Assembly: GCF_002803605.1 (NCBI RefSeq)
Contig: NZ_PHRG01000001.1
Location: 496,001-560,000 of the forward strand
DNA: 64,000 nt
Direction of reading: 5' to 3'
Source: Acinetobacter pseudolwoffii
GTDB taxonomy: Bacteria; Pseudomonadota; Gammaproteobacteria; Pseudomonadales; Moraxellaceae
Shown: positions 272 to 45,870 of the stretch, in pieces
Position numbering within the stretch: position 1 is the stretch's first letter
How the letters are laid out: each line of letters opens with the position of its first letter
Notes under the pieces: model-generated
Seen by the model: only the letters and a program-made list of their open reading frames with translations
Databases searched by the model: none
What the model was told of the DNA's origin: nothing
Program-made: the position numbers and the translations under genes

Positions 272-1468
272 ATGAAGCGAATATCGCCTGTATTACAAAA
301 AATAATCAAACACAGAATCACGAAATATCTGGTCGAAGATGAAGTCGTGATGAACTGGAGTATTCTCAAAAAGTGCATCCTGATGCTAACTTTGGGCTGC
401 GGCGTACATCTGACCTGGCTCGGTTGGGATATCTTTGTTTTATTCAATCCAGAGTATTGGCAATATGTTCAGTTAGAACGGGTTCATACCCAAGTTATCC
501 TGAACAGCAGCTTTTTAGCGATTTTATTGGCACTGATTTATCCCTGTTATAAATTTCAGGGCAATCCTCTGGTGGAACGTTATTTGCCCTATCTGGCAGT
601 TGGTACTTTTGTGATTTCGCTGTGCCGTGATGCCTATGTCGTGGGGGTGATCAGTCCTGTGGCCACCACATCCTATGTCTGTTTAATTATGGTGGGACTG
701 GTGCTGTTTCATCGCAGGCTGGTTTATAGCATGCTGATTCCAGCCTCGCTCTTTTTAGGCGGTTGCGCTTATTTGAGCTTCAGTCAGCAATTGCCTTATT
801 CTCCTTTATTCAACATTCAGGACAAACATTTTTATAATGCTTTCTGGCTGTTTTCAATGCTGTATTTCATTGTCCCAATTTTAGCTGTATGCATGGTGTT
901 ATTTGAAATTTTACTCAGCCAATGGCGTCATCGTGAAGAACTCATCAAGCAGCTCAGTCAGATTGATCCGCTCACCAACCTGTTTAACCGGCGCAGTATC
1001 AATCAATGTCTGGATCAGCTCAATGCTACGGCTGTACCCCATTACGCCCTGGTTCTCTTAGATCTGGATCACTTTAAGAAAATTAATGATCTGTATGGTC
1101 ATCATAAGGGCGATGAAACCTTGGTTGAAGTCAGTGCTGTATTAAGCCAACAGTTACGCGAAAGTGATGTAGTGGGCCGCTTTGGCGGTGAAGAGTTCAT
1201 TTTGGTGCTGAAAAATACCAGTCTGGAAAAAGCCAAACAAGTAGCAGAACGCTGCCGCAGCGCGATTCAGCAATTACAGATGATGAGTGATGAAGGTGAG
1301 CCGATTCCGGTGACTGCCAGTTTCGGAATTGCTATTTCCAAAGCCGAGTTACGCCCACAACAGCTACTCAGTCAGGCCGATCAGGCGCTTTATCAGGCCA
1401 AAGCCGGTGGACGTAATCGGGTCAAAGCCTATGTTGAGCCGGTGACTGCACAGATGCAGATTTCTTAA
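272..1468 (+). CDS. Membrane-bound GGDEF diguanylate cyclase
   Basis: Predicted to make cyclic di-GMP from two GTP at the inner membrane. The N-terminal half (about residues 25-215) holds roughly six hydrophobic segments, as in MASE-type sensor modules. The C-terminal GGDEF domain carries the active-site signature GGEEF at residues 305-309. An RxxD inhibitory site (RESD, 296-299) sits five residues upstream, so product feedback inhibition is expected. The metal-binding LDLDHFKKIND motif is intact. The start is uncertain because no clear Shine-Dalgarno precedes the ATG at 272; an in-frame ATG at 347 (MNWSIL) is possible. It converges with dsbD, 31 bases away. The signal sensed by the membrane part is unknown. 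Confidence 0.9.
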   Translation: MKRISPVLQKIIKHRITKYLVEDEVVMNWSILKKCILMLTLGCGVHLTWLGWDIFVLFNPEYWQYVQLERVHTQVILNSSFLAILLALIYPCYKFQGNPLVERYLPYLAVGTFVISLCRDAYVVGVISPVATTSYVCLIMVGLVLFHRRLVYSMLIPASLFLGGCAYLSFSQQLPYSPLFNIQDKHFYNAFWLFSMLYFIVPILAVCMVLFEILLSQWRHREELIKQLSQIDPLTNLFNRRSINQCLDQLNATAVPHYALVLLDLDHFKKINDLYGHHKGDETLVEVSAVLSQQLRESDVVGRFGGEEFILVLKNTSLEKAKQVAERCRSAIQQLQMMSDEGEPIPVTASFGIAISKAELRPQQLLSQADQALYQAKAGGRNRVKAYVEPVTAQMQIS

Positions 1469-1499
1469 ACGGGTTCAGCTTTTTCGATGATTATGAAGA

Positions 1500-3344
1500 T
1501 TATGGAGTTGAGCTTTGAGCCAGACGTTGCAGCTGGGCCAGCAATTCTGCTTCGCTAAAAGCACCGGTCAAACGTAAACCGCGAATTTCCTGTTGCTGCT
1601 CATTCAGAAATAAATAGGTTGGTGGTCCCAGAATTTCCCATTGATTTAACAGCATTTGATGCGAGGCATTGTATTGGCTTAAATCCAGCTTGATCAGGAA
1701 ATAAGGTGCCAGAGCCTGCTGTACCTGTGCAGATTTTAAAATACGATGTTCAATCGGCTGACAAGCGACACACCAGTCGGCATAGACATCAATCACGATC
1801 TTTTGCCCTTGCGGTGCTGTATTCAAAATCTGCTGAAATTCTGCTGCGCTGCGTGCCACATGCCACTGGGCTTCTGTACTGGACTGCTCAACAAAAAACC
1901 GCTGACTATACTGATATTGGCTATAGCTGATATAAGGCAGCGCTATCATCAGACACAGGATATACAACCACCTCAAGCCAGTACGATGCCAGAAAATCCG
2001 GAACAGTACATAGGCCACAAAGGCCATGCCCAAGCCTAAGGATAACCACTGTAAAGTCGCTTCTGAAATCAGTGGGCGAATAAAATACAGTGCCAGCGCC
2101 AGCATGATAAAGGCAAAGAGCACTTTGATCTGATTCATCCAGTGCCCGGCTTTAGGTAGTACCCGTGCACCCAAAATACTGGCCAGCAGTAAAGGTGTGC
2201 CCATGCCAAAACCGAGGGTAAACAGCAGCAAGGCACCCTGCCACTGGCTTTGGGTCTGGGAAATAAACAAGAGTGCACCCGCCAACGGTGCGGTCATGCA
2301 TGGCCCGACCAGCAGCGCCGAGATCATGCCCATGACTCCAGCACTGACCAAACTACCGCCCTGCTGCATGGCCTGAGCCCGATCCAGACGCTGAACCAGA
2401 CGTTGTGGCAGTTTAATCTCAAACAGTCCAAACAGATTCAGGGCAAACAGGACAAACAACACACTAAACGCGATCAGGGTACCGGGTTGCTGCAACCAAC
2501 GCTGGAAATTCAGGCCGGCCGAAGACGCAATTAAACCCAGCACCGCATAGACCGCGGCCATACTGCTGACAAAAGTCAGGGCGATCATCCAGGCTTTGAC
2601 ACCTTTGCTATCCCGTACAATCAGCGAGGTCAGGATCGGCAGCATCGGCAAGGAACATGGGGTAAAAGCCAGCAAGATTCCTAAGCCAAAGAACAGTAAC
2701 AGTCCATAACCCAAAGAGCGTTCAAGCAATTGAGCTGACCATTTTTGGTCTTGTGCCGCACCGACTGCGGGTTGCCCGCTAGAGGTTGCAGAAAATGCAT
2801 CTGCTGTAGATTCTGAGGAATCCGCTGTATTAAACAGGGTATTGTGTTGCAGTGATGACCCGTTTAGATCAAGTAAGCGCTTGCTTCCTGGGCCGGCAGC
2901 TTCAAATTGCACCAGACCAGACAGATCTGTCTTGAACTGAATACTTTGCGGCGGATAACAGATTCGGTCTTTGGCACAGCCCTGCCAGCTCACCTGATAG
3001 GACTGGTTGGCCTGCGTCGGAATCTGAAACTTTAACTGCTGATAATACACCTGGGTATGCCCATAGTTGTCATCATACAGATCTTTAGCAGGCGGTAATT
3101 CAAGCAATACAGGCTGATTGCCCTGCCGCACTTCAATTTTATGCTGATACAGATAATAGTTATCCGGAATCTGCCAGCTCAGCTCAGCCTGTTGCTGACT
3201 GGTAGAAATCACATGAACAGGAAAAGCCTGCTCGGCAGACAAGAGCGCTGTTTCGGCCTGAACCGGACTGCTAAACACGAGGCTTCCCAGGATGACCGGG
3301 GCAAGCATTTTGCCCCAGCTCTGGAATTGCGGGTTTCTGATCAT
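1500..3344 (-). CDS. dsbD: Thiol:disulfide interchange protein DsbD
   Basis: Moves electrons from cytoplasmic thioredoxin across the inner membrane to periplasmic reductases such as DsbC and CcmG. A signal peptide ends near SPVQA. An N-terminal periplasmic domain has paired cysteines (GCAKDRIC). A central multi-helix domain has the conserved membrane cysteines in FTPCSLPMLP and VGPCMTAP. The C-terminal thioredoxin domain has CVAC at about residues 525-528. The length of about 614 is normal for the family. A GTG directly precedes the chosen ATG and could be the start. The gene lies 14-17 bases downstream of an outer-membrane protein gene and is probably cotranscribed with it. Confidence 0.95.
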   Translation of the reverse strand: MIRNPQFQSWGKMLAPVILGSLVFSSPVQAETALLSAEQAFPVHVISTSQQQAELSWQIPDNYYLYQHKIEVRQGNQPVLLELPPAKDLYDDNYGHTQVYYQQLKFQIPTQANQSYQVSWQGCAKDRICYPPQSIQFKTDLSGLVQFEAAGPGSKRLLDLNGSSLQHNTLFNTADSSESTADAFSATSSGQPAVGAAQDQKWSAQLLERSLGYGLLLFFGLGILLAFTPCSLPMLPILTSLIVRDSKGVKAWMIALTFVSSMAAVYAVLGLIASSAGLNFQRWLQQPGTLIAFSVLFVLFALNLFGLFEIKLPQRLVQRLDRAQAMQQGGSLVSAGVMGMISALLVGPCMTAPLAGALLFISQTQSQWQGALLLFTLGFGMGTPLLLASILGARVLPKAGHWMNQIKVLFAFIMLALALYFIRPLISEATLQWLSLGLGMAFVAYVLFRIFWHRTGLRWLYILCLMIALPYISYSQYQYSQRFFVEQSSTEAQWHVARSAAEFQQILNTAPQGQKIVIDVYADWCVACQPIEHRILKSAQVQQALAPYFLIKLDLSQYNASHQMLLNQWEILGPPTYLFLNEQQQEIRGLRLTGAFSEAELLAQLQRLAQSSTP

Positions 3345-5178: not shown

Positions 5179-6303
5179 AAATTACCATCCTCAATCTTTG
5201 TAACTTTTTGAGTGCAAAAATTTTTATCTTGGCACGTTTGTAGCTTGCTGTTTCGCATCGCATTTCACTTCTTCAAATGATTGGAATTACACCCTCCACT
5301 TTGAATGATGAACACATTTTTGAGTCTGCAGAACCGTGTCCTTATATCTCGAATATCAGCCCTATCTTGAAAATATGCAAGTCCTATTTTGGCTTTTTAG
5401 CAAAAGAATAATGGATTGTGACAACTGTTTACTCAGCTTAAAATAGGGTTATTGACCTCTCTCAATTACATTATCATTCATATGATTTCATCAAAAATTA
5501 ATAGCGAAATATTCTTATAAAAAAGTACAAATAACATCCAGACCACTCTATTCATGAGCTGAAATAATGGCAAAATCTGAAGAGTTTATCTGAAAATCTC
5601 AGAAGCAATAATCAAGTAGATTTTCTGGGAAATATAAGCGTGACAAGCCTTACAATCATCCTTCTCTCTTCTAGGCTAGTGATTGTTTTCTACTCTTCTT
5701 AAAGATTTTCAAAAATTCTTATATCTTCCCCTAAACACAATGTTCTTATGGCTTTTTGTATGCAGGAAATGACCGGTCAGGATGATTTCTCCACAAGCCA
5801 AACAGTTTAATAAATAAACAAAAAACTTTGATTAAAGCTTGAATTTATTACACAAAATGAACAGGAATTTAAAGATTCTGGCAGCTATAGTCGCTTAAAT
5901 ACCGGCCAAATAGCTTCATCGAGCCAAACATTTTCATGCTTTTTAGCAAAATATTCGCCCTAAAAATACATCGCTATTGTGCTTTCTCTTTTTGATGAAT
6001 GATGAGATGGCAATCTTGCAAACTCAAAACACTTAAAAAACAGTGAGATTTAAATTCGATTAAAGAGAGTTTCAGCTTTATTATTTCAATAAAGCTTTCT
6101 TGGTTTTTATACTGCCTGATTTAAATTTTTTTTAATAATAATGACTTAAAAACTCATCTCTTATTTTCGGAAATGTCTATCGATGAGATCAAATATTTCC
6201 TCATGCTGAAGACTTGGAGATATTTAGGTCAACGATCAATTTTAACTTTATTTTTACGCATTAATCTGTATGCTTACTCTGCTTTCTTGGGGGAGAGATT
6301 TAA
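5179..6303. other. Gene-poor AT-rich region, possible gene relic
   Basis: About 1.1 kb without a convincing gene. All frames are broken by frequent stops. On the minus strand, 5885-5959 reads a short coding-like tail (ending KKHENVWLDEAIWPVFKRL) directly behind an in-frame TAG, and further open codons lie upstream. This could be a decayed gene. A sequence close to the sigma-54 consensus, with GG and GC ten bases apart, lies at 5230-5244 on the plus strand. The right end must hold the promoter of the Tsx-like gene. No repeats or RNA genes were recognised. Confidence 0.5.
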
Positions 6304-7047
6304 ATGAAATTGACACAACTCGCGGCACTTTGTGCATTGGCTACCACTGCAACATTTACCCAGGCAAAACCAATCTGGCAAGACTTTAGCCTGACCGGCC
6401 TTTATGGTGAAAACTATAAAGTACCATTTCCAACTCAAGATGAAAAAATTGAGCAAAGCACAGTTACTGCTGAATATGCAGCCGGTTTTAAATATGGCGA
6501 TTTCTTTGCCTTTGCGGATCGTACCAACAATGATCCAAATGGTAACGAAACCTATTTTGAAGTTGCACCACGTTTAAGCCTTGGCGCGGTAACTGGCCAG
6601 AAACTTGAACTAGGCCCTATCACAGACATATTGATTGCAACGACTTGGGAAGGCAACAGTGCCCAGGGTAGTGATTTTAACAACTACCTATATGGTGTTG
6701 GTTTTAATTTAGCGATCCCTTATACCAACTATGCAACCATCAACTTCTATAAAGCCGACAATGATCTGCAAAAAGATGATTATCAAATGACCATCACTTA
6801 TGCGGTACCATTTAAAATTGGCAGTGAAGAGTTCCTGGCAGATGCTTTCCTAGATTGGTCAACTGCTGAAGGTCCCGATCATAAAAGTGAACTCAACTGG
6901 ACCAGTCAATATAAATGGAATGTGGGTAAACACATTTCTCCCGAGACTAAACTTTATCTAGGTATCGAGCATTCGGTCTGGAATAACAAGTTCGGTACAA
7001 ATATCGACCAACATGATGTTAGTGCACTGGTGAAGTATCACTTCTAA
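6304..7047 (+). CDS. Tsx-like nucleoside-specific outer-membrane channel
   Basis: A 247-residue outer-membrane protein. A signal peptide ends near FTQAKP. The mature part begins WQDFSLTGLYGENYKV, as in Tsx/OmpK channels, and contains many aromatic-rich beta strands, ending in the C-terminal phenylalanine signature (VKYHF). Family members let nucleosides or other small solutes cross the outer membrane; the substrate here is inferred from family only. A strong ribosome site (GGGGGAGAG) precedes the ATG, suggesting good translation. It follows a long gene-free region and ends at a UUCG-loop terminator, so it is probably a single-gene transcript. Confidence 0.8.
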   Translation: MKLTQLAALCALATTATFTQAKPIWQDFSLTGLYGENYKVPFPTQDEKIEQSTVTAEYAAGFKYGDFFAFADRTNNDPNGNETYFEVAPRLSLGAVTGQKLELGPITDILIATTWEGNSAQGSDFNNYLYGVGFNLAIPYTNYATINFYKADNDLQKDDYQMTITYAVPFKIGSEEFLADAFLDWSTAEGPDHKSELNWTSQYKWNVGKHISPETKLYLGIEHSVWNNKFGTNIDQHDVSALVKYHF

Positions 7048-36882: not shown

Positions 36883-37602
36883 ATGTTAAAACAAACCTTG
36901 CTCTATACTGGTAAAGCGAAATCTGTCTACACCACAGACAGTTCAGACCATCTGATTTTAGTCTTTCGAGATGATGCCTCTGCATTCAATGGCGAAAAAA
37001 TCGAGCAACTAGATCGTAAAGGCAAGGTGAACAACCGTTTTAACGCCTTCATCATGGAAAAGCTGGCAGAAGCGGGTATTGAAACTCACTTTGAAAAGCT
37101 GCTGACTCCAAATGAAGTGCTGGTGAAAAAACTGGATATGATCCCGGTTGAATGTGTGATTCGTAACTATGCAGCAGGTTCTTTATGCCGCCGTTTAGGT
37201 GTTGAAGAAGGTAAAGAACTGACTCCATCTACATTCGAATTGTTCTTTAAAGACGATGCGCTTGGCGATCCAATGGTCAATGAATCGCAAGCGATTGCTT
37301 TAGGTTGGGCGACTGCTGAGCAACTGGAAAAAATGAAAGAATTGACTTACCAAGTCAATGACGTGCTGAAAGCATTGTTTGATGCCGGTAACATGATTCT
37401 GGTCGACTTCAAACTTGAATTCGGTGTATTCCATGACCGTATCGTTTTGGGTGATGAATTCTCTCCAGACGGTTGCCGTCTATGGGACAAAGACACCAAG
37501 AAAAAACTCGACAAAGACCGTTTCCGTCAAGGTTTAGGCGGTGTGGTTGAAGCCTATGAAGAAGTTGCGGGCCGTTTAGGTATTAACCTCGACAACATCT
37601 AA
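36883..37602 (+). CDS. purC: Phosphoribosylaminoimidazole-succinocarboxamide synthase
   Basis: Makes SAICAR in purine synthesis. The 239-residue protein has [17 protein letters not shown] and [12 protein letters not shown] (ATP-binding P-loop-like start), [27 protein letters not shown] and [29 protein letters not shown]. Length matches the short bacterial form. AAAGG precedes the ATG. An intrinsic terminator lies immediately upstream, so expression may be controlled by attenuation or by an internal promoter. Confidence 0.96.
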
Positions 37603-37624: not shown

Positions 37625-37653
37625 AAAACCGAGCTCAACCGCTCGGTTTTTTT
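37625..37653 (+). terminator. Intrinsic terminator of purC
   Basis: AAACCGAGC/GCTCGGTTT stem with a six-base loop followed by a T-run, 20 bases after the stop. Confidence 0.92.
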
Positions 37654-37735
37654 ATCCCTGATTTTTTTGGCTGGGCCAGATTAACCTTTTAAGCTTTAAT
37701 CGAAAAAACAAATATTACAGATAAAAATGATCGCT

Positions 37736-37764
37736 TTTACATTGGAAAATCTATGGTCTAATAT
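37736..37764 (+). promoter_or_regulatory. Near-consensus sigma-70 promoter in the purC-rarA gap
   Basis: TTTACA and TAATAT are separated by exactly 17 bases. No open reading frame starts downstream before the terminator at 37877, so it appears to drive a noncoding RNA starting near 37771. Confidence 0.75.
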
Positions 37765-37770
37765 CATCAC

Positions 37771-37906
37771 ATACCAGGCAAATTAGTGAGCTGATTGATT
37801 TAACTCAAGGTTTGCCGACCAGATTGATCGGCTACCCTCTAGGATGTTCTCTCCCTTAAAAAACATCCTAATTTATGCCCAATTCGCCTTGAATTGGGCT
37901 TTTTTT
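37771..37906 (+). ncRNA. Candidate regulatory small RNA
   Basis: About 136 bases between a strong promoter and a perfect terminator, with no ORF of note. It can form hairpin 1 (GCCGA 37814-37818 with TCGGC 37828-37832), hairpin 2 (GGATGTT 37842-37848 with AACATCC 37862-37868) and a terminator hairpin. The 13-base loop of hairpin 2 contains CTCTCCCTT and the linker before it contains ACCCTCT, both complementary to purine-rich ribosome binding sites. Such C-rich loops are typical of trans-acting sRNAs that block translation. The family was not recognised, and the start site is estimated from the promoter. Confidence 0.65.
37877..37906 (+). terminator. Terminator of the candidate small RNA
   Basis: Perfect nine-pair stem (GCCCAATTC/GAATTGGGC), five-base loop, then seven T residues. 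No protein gene ends nearby on this strand, so it must belong to another transcript. It lies 31 bases from the end of rarA. Confidence 0.9.
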
Positions 37907-37936: not shown

Positions 37937-39211
37937 TTATTGCTGCTGTTGCTGTTGTTGCCAACGGCGTTGCTGTAAGCGCTCTCCTTCAACTTCACGT
38001 TTATTGCGTGCCGACTCATACAGTTTGGTATCTTTCAGTTCTGGCGGCATATAGTCTTGCAGCACAAAATGCTCAGGATAATGATGCGGATACAGATAAT
38101 CCACCCCGTAGCCCTGTTCTTTCATCAGCTTGGTCGGTGCATTTCTCAAATGCAAAGGCACCGGCAAATTCGAGGTTTTATCTGCAAGCTCCATCGCCTT
38201 GTTAATTGCCAGATAGGTGCTGTTACTTTTGGCACTGGTGGCTAAATACACCGCACATTGTCCTAAAATAATCCGGCATTCCGGCATGCCGACGGCCTGC
38301 ACCGAACGGAAACATTCACCCGCCAGCAATAAGGCATTCGGATTGGAATTACCGATATCTTCAGAAGCTGCAATCAGCATACGGCGGGCAATAAATACCG
38401 GATCTTCACCGCCTTTGAGCATGCGTGCCATCCAGTACAGTGCTGCATCGGGATCACTGCCGCGAATTGATTTTATAAAAGCCGAGACCAGATCATAATG
38501 CTGTTCACCGGACTTGTCATAACGGGCAATATTTTGCTGTGCCACTTTCACCACCCCTGCATTGGTGATGATATTTTCCATATCCGGTTCAAAAGTACTG
38601 GCAATCAGATCAAGTAAATTCAATGCTTTACGGGCATCACCTGCTGCGAACTGCACCAAGGCATCAAATTCTTCAATCAGGATATGTCGTTCCTGCAAAA
38701 AACGGTCATTTTGCAAGGCTTGTGTGAGCAGAGTCTGAATCGATTCCGCACTCAACGCATTCAGGCTATACACCTGACAACGTGACAATAAGGCACTATT
38801 CACTTCAAAAGACGGGTTTTCGGTAGTGGCACCAATTAAGGTAATTTTCCCTTTTTCGACCGCATTTAACAGTGCATCCTGCTGGGATTTATTAAAGCGG
38901 TGAATTTCATCAATAAACACCACTGGCGTCAGCAGATCACCGCCTTCGGCAATGATTTCACGTAGTTCTTTCACCCCGGTATTCAGTGCAGACAGACTGA
39001 TAAAAGGCCGATCTACCGCTTGTGCCAACAGTAAGGCAATGGTGGTTTTTCCAACGCCGGGTGGTCCCCAGAAAATAATCGACGGTAGATGACCCTGATC
39101 AATCATCTGGCGTAAGGGCGCCTGTTCCCCTAGCAAATGTTCCTGCCCGATAATCTCTGCAAGGTCACGTGGTCTTAAGCGTTCTGGAAGCGGGATATGA
39201 CTATCTGACAT
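37937..39211 (-). CDS. rarA: Replication-associated recombination protein A
   Basis: An AAA+ ATPase (RarA/MgsA) acting at stalled replication forks. The 424-residue protein has Walker [10 protein letters not shown] and Walker [20 protein letters not shown], the sensor region [20 protein letters not shown] and the C-terminal tetramerisation part ([30 protein letters not shown]). The last residues are WQQQQQQQ, encoded by a CAA/CAG repeat, an unusual poorly conserved tail that could vary by slippage. It stands alone and is leftward. Confidence 0.95.
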
Positions 39212-45778: not shown

Positions 45779-45797
45779 ATTCGATAGATGACCATTG

Positions 45798-45820
45798 AGG
45801 GTGCGAAGCACCCTTTTTTT
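45798..45820 (+). terminator. Intrinsic terminator of nadC
   Basis: AGGGTGC/GCACCCT stem with a GAA loop followed by seven T residues. Confidence 0.93.
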
Positions 45821-45870
45821 ATTTTTGGATTTTTTTTGCATATATTTTGTTCAATTCTCTATTTTAAGTC

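Follow-up and report, generated by a model that had tools for sequence, protein, structure and literature searches.

The gap between purC and rarA in Acinetobacter pseudolwoffii carries a predicted small RNA (sRNA) gene of a new family of trans-acting sRNAs, in which a C-rich hairpin loop would probably repress translation of a tsx-like channel gene by covering its ribosome-binding site. The window, i.e., the whole stretch of DNA analyzed here, comprises 64,000 nt of contig NZ_PHRG01000001.1 (positions 496,001 to 560,000, forward strand). A sequence-only reading of it had proposed a separately transcribed, trans-acting regulatory RNA with an anti-Shine-Dalgarno loop at this locus, and both the conservation of the gene and its complementarity to tsx support that proposal at the sequence level. 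The gene has its own promoter and terminator and lacks an ORF, and it shows conserved, specific complementarity to a translation start encoded elsewhere, which is weaker in four lwoffii-type genomes and in genome G011.

An sRNA-like gene between purC and rarA

The convergent genes purC (36883-37602, plus strand) and rarA (37937-39211, minus strand), whose names rest on Pfam/NCBIfam, are separated by 334 bases. The following features were assigned in this gap.

37686-37735, plus strand: conserved box AATCG-AAAAA ... AT-AAAATGATCG-TT, adjoining the -35 element on its upstream side (alignment of 25 copies)
37736-37764, plus strand: promoter TTTACA-N17-TAATAT, with the -35 element at 37736-37741 and the -10 element at 37759-37764 (comparison of 25 copies)
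37771-37906, plus strand: predicted sRNA of about 136 nt, with the start placed from the -10 element (sequence, fold, and match to covariance model R1)
37777-37816, plus strand: 5' hairpin SL1, arms GGCAAA (37777-37782) and TTTGCC (37811-37816) (comparison of 24 sequences)
37834-37840, plus strand: near-invariant linker ACCCTCT, the last T of which (37840) also forms the basal pair of SL2 with A 37870 (comparison)
37840-37870, plus strand: hairpin SL2, arms TAGGATGTT (37840-37848) and AACATCCTA (37862-37870), presenting the C-rich loop (fold and comparison)
37848-37859, plus strand: predicted seed TCTCTCCCTTAA, with 12 contiguous pairs to the tsx site
37877-37906, plus strand: intrinsic terminator, a 9-bp stem (37877-37899) followed by seven Ts (37900-37906) (sequence; four stem pairs changed on both sides)

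The last T in the T run of the purC terminator is at 37653, and the -35 element follows 83 positions later, as the sequence-only reading had stated. Its stretch of about 136 bases without an ORF was likewise borne out, in that no sense ORF of at least 25 aa lies inside 37771-37906; on the minus strand there is a 27-aa ORF in the sRNA region, and a TTG-start frame opposite rarA starts within the terminator (37894). The perfect nine-pair terminator was recovered and is kept in the copies beside rarA. No plasmid or phage record matched the window copy (E value of 1e-5), and we rejected a mobile-element origin. The C terminus of RarA (37937-37970) contains a glutamine run, the length of which varies between relatives.

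The proposed promoter is present and conserved in 25 copies (a set with G096 and without G034). The -35 element reads TTTACA in 23 copies and TTCACA in 2, the -10 element is TAATAT in 15 copies and a near relative in 10, and every one of the 25 has a 17-base spacer. The first script sought T[TC][TG]ACA and tried a spacer of 17 first; when spacers of 14 to 20 bases were permitted, 17 was again found in 25/25 copies, with a second reading of 20 bases in 9. Judged alone, the promoter does not exceed chance expectation (4 such sites versus 4.5 expected in 2.4 kb), so the comparison across genomes decides. Promoter, loop, and terminator, the conservation of which the sequence-only reading had made the touchstone of its proposal, are all conserved beside rarA (24 to 25 copies).

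AATCG-AAAAA ... AT-AAAATgATCgtT is kept up to the -35 element in the aligned copies. Each of six genomes with a rarA-side copy has the string AAAATNATCNNTTTTACA a single time at the sRNA; the window's own genome (G000) has one occurrence elsewhere, and G006 and G009 lack the string. The box is likely the binding site of a regulator. SigAb, an Acinetobacter extracytoplasmic function (ECF) factor reported to be distinct from RpoE, recognizes promoters described as having GTCAAC and CGTT elements (PMC12153292). The SigAb-type pattern (GTCAAC, 16 to 18 bases, CGTT) was not found here, where the 25 copies have TTTACA or TTCACA, 17 bases, and TAnnnT; SabS, which is SigAb dependent, resembles the predicted RNA as an Acinetobacter sRNA described with its own promoter (PMC12153292).

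Of 58 genomes searched with BLAST, 13 gave matches, and G034 contained several next to one another. We built a covariance model of the 3' core (R1) from 13 copies, one of which is the window copy, whose core scores 86.9 bits. Strong R1 matches (80 to 93 bits) were found at 8 of 45 purC loci from named Acinetobacter or Moraxellaceae (each locus comprising purC and up to 3 kb; 57 of 80 loci searched): A. lwoffii (3), A. schindleri, A. variabilis, A. kookii, A. sp. SFB, and A. sp. ANC 3781. Within the 3-kb locus, the copy lies between purC and rarA in 24 of the 26 genomes compared; in G121 and G167, only rarA is within reach of it. The rarA-side copy is thus typical of part of the genus. Rfam 15 gave no family at the gathering cutoff for the window or for eight relative loci.

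Next to rarA, G034 has a tandem array of three copies together with a remnant in which the C-rich loop is no longer present. Two of the three copies have TTTACA-17-TAATAT and the third does not; these copies (L005 and L037; about 780-1572, minus strand), with their differing loops and two full promoters, represent a local amplification of the sRNA.

Folding and concerted changes

The predicted fold of the window copy has a free energy of -39.9 kcal/mol (z score, -4.3), and none of 200 shuffled sequences folded as well. Of the two internal hairpins drawn in the sequence-only reading, SL2 stands. The other, GCCGA..TCGGC (37814-37832), belongs to the minimum-energy fold of the window copy and is genome specific; the comparison favors GGCAAA/TTTGCC (SL1) in its place. 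SL2 has a 13-base loop, CTCTCCCTTAAAA, which contains the C-rich stretch CTCTCCCTT.

Across 24 sequences, 99.5% of the SL2 cells and 98.6% of the terminator cells were paired; being almost invariant, SL2 says little by covariation. Four pairs of the terminator stem were changed on both sides. For SL1, 80.4% of the cells were paired and two pairs were changed on both sides, one of these being unpaired in 12 sequences. The SL1 arms were joined by at least three pairs in 18 of the 24 single folds, not including that of the window copy, and RNAalifold did not predict SL1 from the same alignment. Taken together, SL1, SL2, and the terminator had 94.2% of their cells paired versus 91.4% in shuffles (0/500 as high) and 21 double-changed cells versus 7.3 (0/500), and versions of this structure slid along the alignment had 28 to 45%. 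The numbers of pairs changed on both sides (6 versus 4.2 in shuffles) and of further pair types (14 versus 13.9) were not clearly above those in shuffles. The terminator stem varies in concert, and SL1 does likewise, less strongly; the covariation check suggested for the purC-rarA gap thus revealed concerted changes.

A tsx-like gene as the predicted target

The target search suggested by the sequence-only reading, run with the loop motif, identified a specific and conserved ribosome site at a tsx-like gene in the window.

6287-6298, plus strand: predicted target site TTGGGGGAGAGA, which includes the Shine-Dalgarno sequence of the tsx-like gene (loop complementarity)
6304-7047, plus strand: predicted target gene, a Tsx-family nucleoside-specific outer membrane channel of 247 aa (Pfam PF03502)

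The gene product matches Channel_Tsx (PF03502) with an E value of 2.5e-10 (41 bits; cutoff, 27.2), and its match to the NCBIfam Tsx subfamily model lies far below the cutoff of that model. Seed and site form, in order, eight Watson-Crick pairs, two G-U pairs, and two A-U pairs. Eleven of the 12 seed bases have unpaired probabilities of 0.88 to 1.0 (first base, 0.17). Opening costs are 1.2 kcal/mol for the loop, which is open, and 7.4 kcal/mol for the tsx site, which is partly structured, leaving a net interaction of -9.0 kcal/mol.

Among the 982 in-frame start codons of ORFs of at least 90 aa in the window, the tsx site ranked first (-19.4; next different site, -17.0). With the loop alone as the query, tsx was also first of 59 genome sites with GGGAGA or AGAGGGT before ATG. 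With the linker and the whole of SL2 as the query, raw duplex energy placed tsx 52nd of 59; this query favors long imperfect duplexes, many of them at chance ATGs inside genes, and we selected tsx because its start is real and its 12-pair duplex is uninterrupted.

The tsx gene was present in 30/30 genomes queried. In each of 25 genomes with a rarA-side sRNA (G034 included, G096 not; other strong-copy genomes, e.g., G008, G098, G099, G100, G186, G176, and G012, lie outside the set), the loop and the tsx site form 9 to 16 contiguous pairs, G-U pairs allowed, and the interaction energy surpassed that of shuffled loops (P of ≤0.028 in each; 500 shuffles; best copy for G034). The G034 copies have three different loops, and the middle copy has nine pairs with tsx. 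The Watson-Crick run reaches at least 7 pairs in 20 of the 25 genomes, with a maximum of 13; it is 4 in four lwoffii-type genomes and 5 in G011, and in these five it is no better than in shuffled loops (P of 0.93 to 0.98; G011, 0.40).

The tsx site also stands out in pattern searches. CTYGGGGGAGA had 32 matches in 19 genomes, chosen because their tsx has GGGGGAGA, versus 1 match of the reversed pattern. Nineteen of the 32 were tsx (one per genome), nine were the sRNA gene on the other strand, and the remaining four were opposite open frames (two), intergenic (one), and before a short ORF (one). GGGGGAGA is not carried at tsx by the four lwoffii-type genomes, G011, and G034, and the ribosome sites of tsx paralogues (nine genomes) lack it. 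In eight genomes whose loops carry UAUCUCCC, chosen with the knowledge that their tsx has the motif, a search for the seed complement GGGAGATA before ATG returned 76 rows versus 31 for the reversed pattern, and tsx was the only site recognized in 8/8 genomes. Thirty of the 76 rows were fetched, and the four tsx sites among them had the four best energies.

The window pairs CUCUCCC with GGGAGAG, and most relatives pair AUCUCCC with GGGAGAU; a mismatch beside the core occurs in G121, G152, and G167 (AUCUCCC versus GGGAGAG) and in G187 (versus GGGAGAA). Cognate pairs were better than noncognate pairs by a mean of 0.7 to 1.1 kcal/mol, with permutation values, uncorrected for relatedness, of 0.014 (25 genomes), 0.024 (20 unique pairs), and 0.022 (14 distinct loops).

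The tsx genes of G006, G007, G009, G070, and G183 retain GGGGGAGA as well, and G191 has GGGGAGA. Outside the rarA-side group, the loop fits tsx less well. The loop found at another locus in G009 forms eight Watson-Crick pairs with tsx (energy P of 0.02), and those in G006, G070, and G191 form six (P of 0.05 to 0.11). The tsx gene of G183 keeps GGGGGAGATA, and no CUCCC-loop copy was found in the four matching regions read in this genome (L160, L173, L178, and L377). The ribosome site of G183 may owe its conservation to something else, or a C-rich copy may have been overlooked.

On this basis, we propose, as the likeliest reading, that a standalone sigma-70-type promoter would transcribe an sRNA of about 136 nt ending at the intrinsic terminator, and that SL2 would present a single-stranded, UCUCCC-centered loop that base-pairs with the ribosome-binding site of the tsx-like mRNA. 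Pairing over the Shine-Dalgarno sequence would block 30S binding and lower Tsx synthesis, probably with the participation of Hfq, and a predicted regulator would act through the box before the -35 element.

Breadth of targeting

A real sRNA could instead be a broad anti-Shine-Dalgarno regulator, for which tsx would be one target among others or a secondary one, and we consider this reading rather unlikely, though it is the strongest competitor of tsx repression. UCUCCC is a generic anti-Shine-Dalgarno sequence, and a C-rich loop pairs with many G-rich ribosome sites: GGGAGA before ATG has 77 matches in G000 (30 of them read) versus 33 for the reversed pattern, and these include rpsL and gyrB, both recognized from translation, and filA (NCBIfam). 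Two further sites from the seed search recur, with identical matched letters, in 5 and 4 of the 8 genomes, before short frames where read, and the diversity of the three G034 loops also fits broad targeting. Against it, complementarity at tsx extends beyond the Shine-Dalgarno sequence in many genomes, to as many as 13 Watson-Crick pairs, and no other site was recognized in all eight genomes of the seed search.

The filA leader keeps CTCTTGGGAGAGT in 18/18 rows with the start seen (of 24), a point in favor of broad targeting. We set filA aside as a target because CTCTTGGGAGAGT is self-complementary and is present in G009, G183, and G191, in which no rarA-side copy was seen. At the filA starts (L276 to L299; G000 C1:996464), the self-complementary CTCTTGGGAGAGT lies over the ribosome site, and this leader is possibly a structured translation control element.

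The linker

The sequence-only reading had also assigned ribosome-site pairing to the linker ACCCTCT. The linker is near-invariant, but this part of the proposal found no support: AGAGGGT(A) before ATG had 33 matches versus 31 reversed in four genomes, without a convincing excess, and we rejected ACCCUCU as a second seed. A looser linker-complement pattern before ATG gave 43 versus 29 matches in G000. Two genomes shared linker sites at mscS and bpt (named from translation; G000 and G022) and at a dehydrogenase-like gene (G192 and G022), which is too little to claim them as targets.

These counts also bear on a second alternative, in which the tsx pairing is a by-product of anti-Shine-Dalgarno similarity and the function resides in the linker ACCCUCUAGG, common to the tsaC-locus relatives without a C-rich loop (see below). 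The linker is indeed the most invariant unpaired part across locus types, and the tsaC-type members do lack CUCCC, but linker-complementary sites show no excess before starts and the loop-tsx match is specific (CTYGGGGGAGA); we regard this alternative as improbable.

Comparison with known sRNAs

The enterobacterial sRNA MicA is described as repressing ompA, tsx, and ecnB, with tsx as a target in Escherichia coli and Salmonella (PMC3551931). The predicted RNA would resemble MicA in being a standalone sRNA of the Hfq class that targets, among others, tsx mRNA. MicA acts via a linear 5' end, and its stem 1 is also needed for tsx, whereas the seed here lies in a hairpin loop; MicA was not among the Rfam matches for the window. 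Since MicA represses tsx, the control proposed here would be of the same kind, exerted by another RNA family through a loop seed. If so, Acinetobacter has its own sRNA for the control of an outer membrane nucleoside channel, the role that MicA plays for tsx in E. coli and Salmonella, and nucleoside entry through the Tsx-like channel would be open to study via one small gene. The proximity of purC to a nucleoside channel gene suggests purine supply; we give this no weight because relatives of the sRNA adjoin other genes.

Aar, an Acinetobacter sRNA with a CUCC seed, is reported to repress carO and bfnH (PMC11472050, PMC12802169). It resembles the predicted RNA, as far as its published description goes, in its C-rich seed covering ribosome sites and its two 3' hairpins. 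The Aar seed is placed in a single-stranded 5' region, with in-line probing indicating single-strandedness to nt 38 (PMC11472050). The seed here lies in the SL2 loop, and we rejected identity with Aar on this difference in anatomy. In strain AB5075, the neighbors of Aar are trpS and sucD. Its reported position in that strain is 861,839-862,019 (PMC5320573).

The nearest Rfam score was that of suhB/mmgR (RF00519), which shares a CUCCCU motif followed by a terminator. We rejected it at 36.6 bits (gathering cutoff, 41), and the mmgR CUCCCU is in an unpaired linker between stems, compared with a loop here. VrrA was a near miss in the Rfam search and was rejected on score. No description of this sRNA was found in literature passages and listings exclusive of supplements, the ATCC 17978 transcriptome, and the AB5075 group 3 to 6 sequences; nor was a link between an sRNA and tsx in Acinetobacter found in such sources, including the main texts, without supplements, of interactome papers. 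Validated targets are reportedly known for only a few A. baumannii sRNAs (PMC12802169), and the predicted RNA offers a defined target open to testing, an exactly placed seed, and natural variation in sequence among species.

Relatives at other chromosomal loci

R1 matched 164 of 175 Acinetobacter genomes at an E value of ≤0.01 (model-source genomes included) and 10 of 145 sampled genomes of the order (the window's own included); the matches in the other 9 of 144 genomes of the order were weak (E values of 2.8e-5 to 0.008). Both searches used stricter filters, with which weak matches are lost. At the loci read, the shared core consists of TACCCTCTAGGATG-loop-CATCCTA-terminator. Judging from sequence, the 3' core (ACCCUCU, SL2, and terminator) belongs to an Acinetobacter family whose members also lie beside omp33-36, blaOXA, and tsaC.

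G006, G070, G110, and G191 have a C-rich-loop relative next to omp33-36 (G007 has ACUCCC), and G009, G020, G023, G085, G087, and G134 have one next to a class D beta-lactamase gene. Of these neighbors, only the G006 porin, which matches the NCBIfam Omp33-36 model, and the G020 gene, which matches the class D model (nearest subfamily, OXA-214, below its cutoff), were tested against models; the others were recognized from translations. A third type, AACCCTCTGGATGTG...CACATCC, adjoins tsaC in 11 genomes with flanks read, including the window's own (G000:C29:65312); the identity of tsaC was tested by Pfam for G007 only. These tsaC-type members have no CUCCC, i.e., no C-rich loop.

That the purC-rarA region is mere conserved termination or spacer DNA of two convergent genes, with no regulatory RNA, is highly improbable: gaps of this kind often hold terminators, but purC has its own terminator upstream, conservation covers the promoter, linker, and loop and not the terminator alone, and the same core is found at other loci with other neighbors.

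The distribution is compatible with a broader scheme, which we offer tentatively and would not yet favor, in which a genus-wide superfamily of ACCCUCU-hairpin-terminator RNAs (purC-rarA, omp33/blaOXA, and tsaC) would include C-rich members that are dedicated, coevolving outer membrane channel repressors and one tandem set, in a single genome, with loops diversified to new targets. Such a superfamily would play, in this lineage, the part of the RpoE-dependent porin-control sRNAs MicA and RybB. The A. baumannii AB5075 sRNA groups 1 to 6 are likewise described as multicopy families in the genus (PMC5320573).

Several minor observations concern these loci. The gap between omp33-36 and the opposite gene holds a convergent pair of terminator-ended, sRNA-like elements (L170/L181 in G006, L063 in G110, and L174 in G007), the second of which (...CGATGTGTATACCACATC... 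in G006 and G110) is without a C-rich loop. The gene opposite omp33 was taken for a GGDEF-type gene from its translation, and Pfam gave no match to a 439-residue part of it. At L007, L011/L157, L012, and L378 to L380, of which only L007 was model tested, a relative with a CUCCC loop immediately follows a class D gene, in convergent orientation. The element in the tsaC-EamA gap (e.g., L057, 2013-2083, and L163, 1501-1571) has a related hairpin and terminator and is likely a separate sRNA. Within the window, a weak R1 match at 45790-45837 (plus strand; 22.2 bits; E value of 0.0037) is, on reading, an ordinary GGGTGC/GCACCC terminator.
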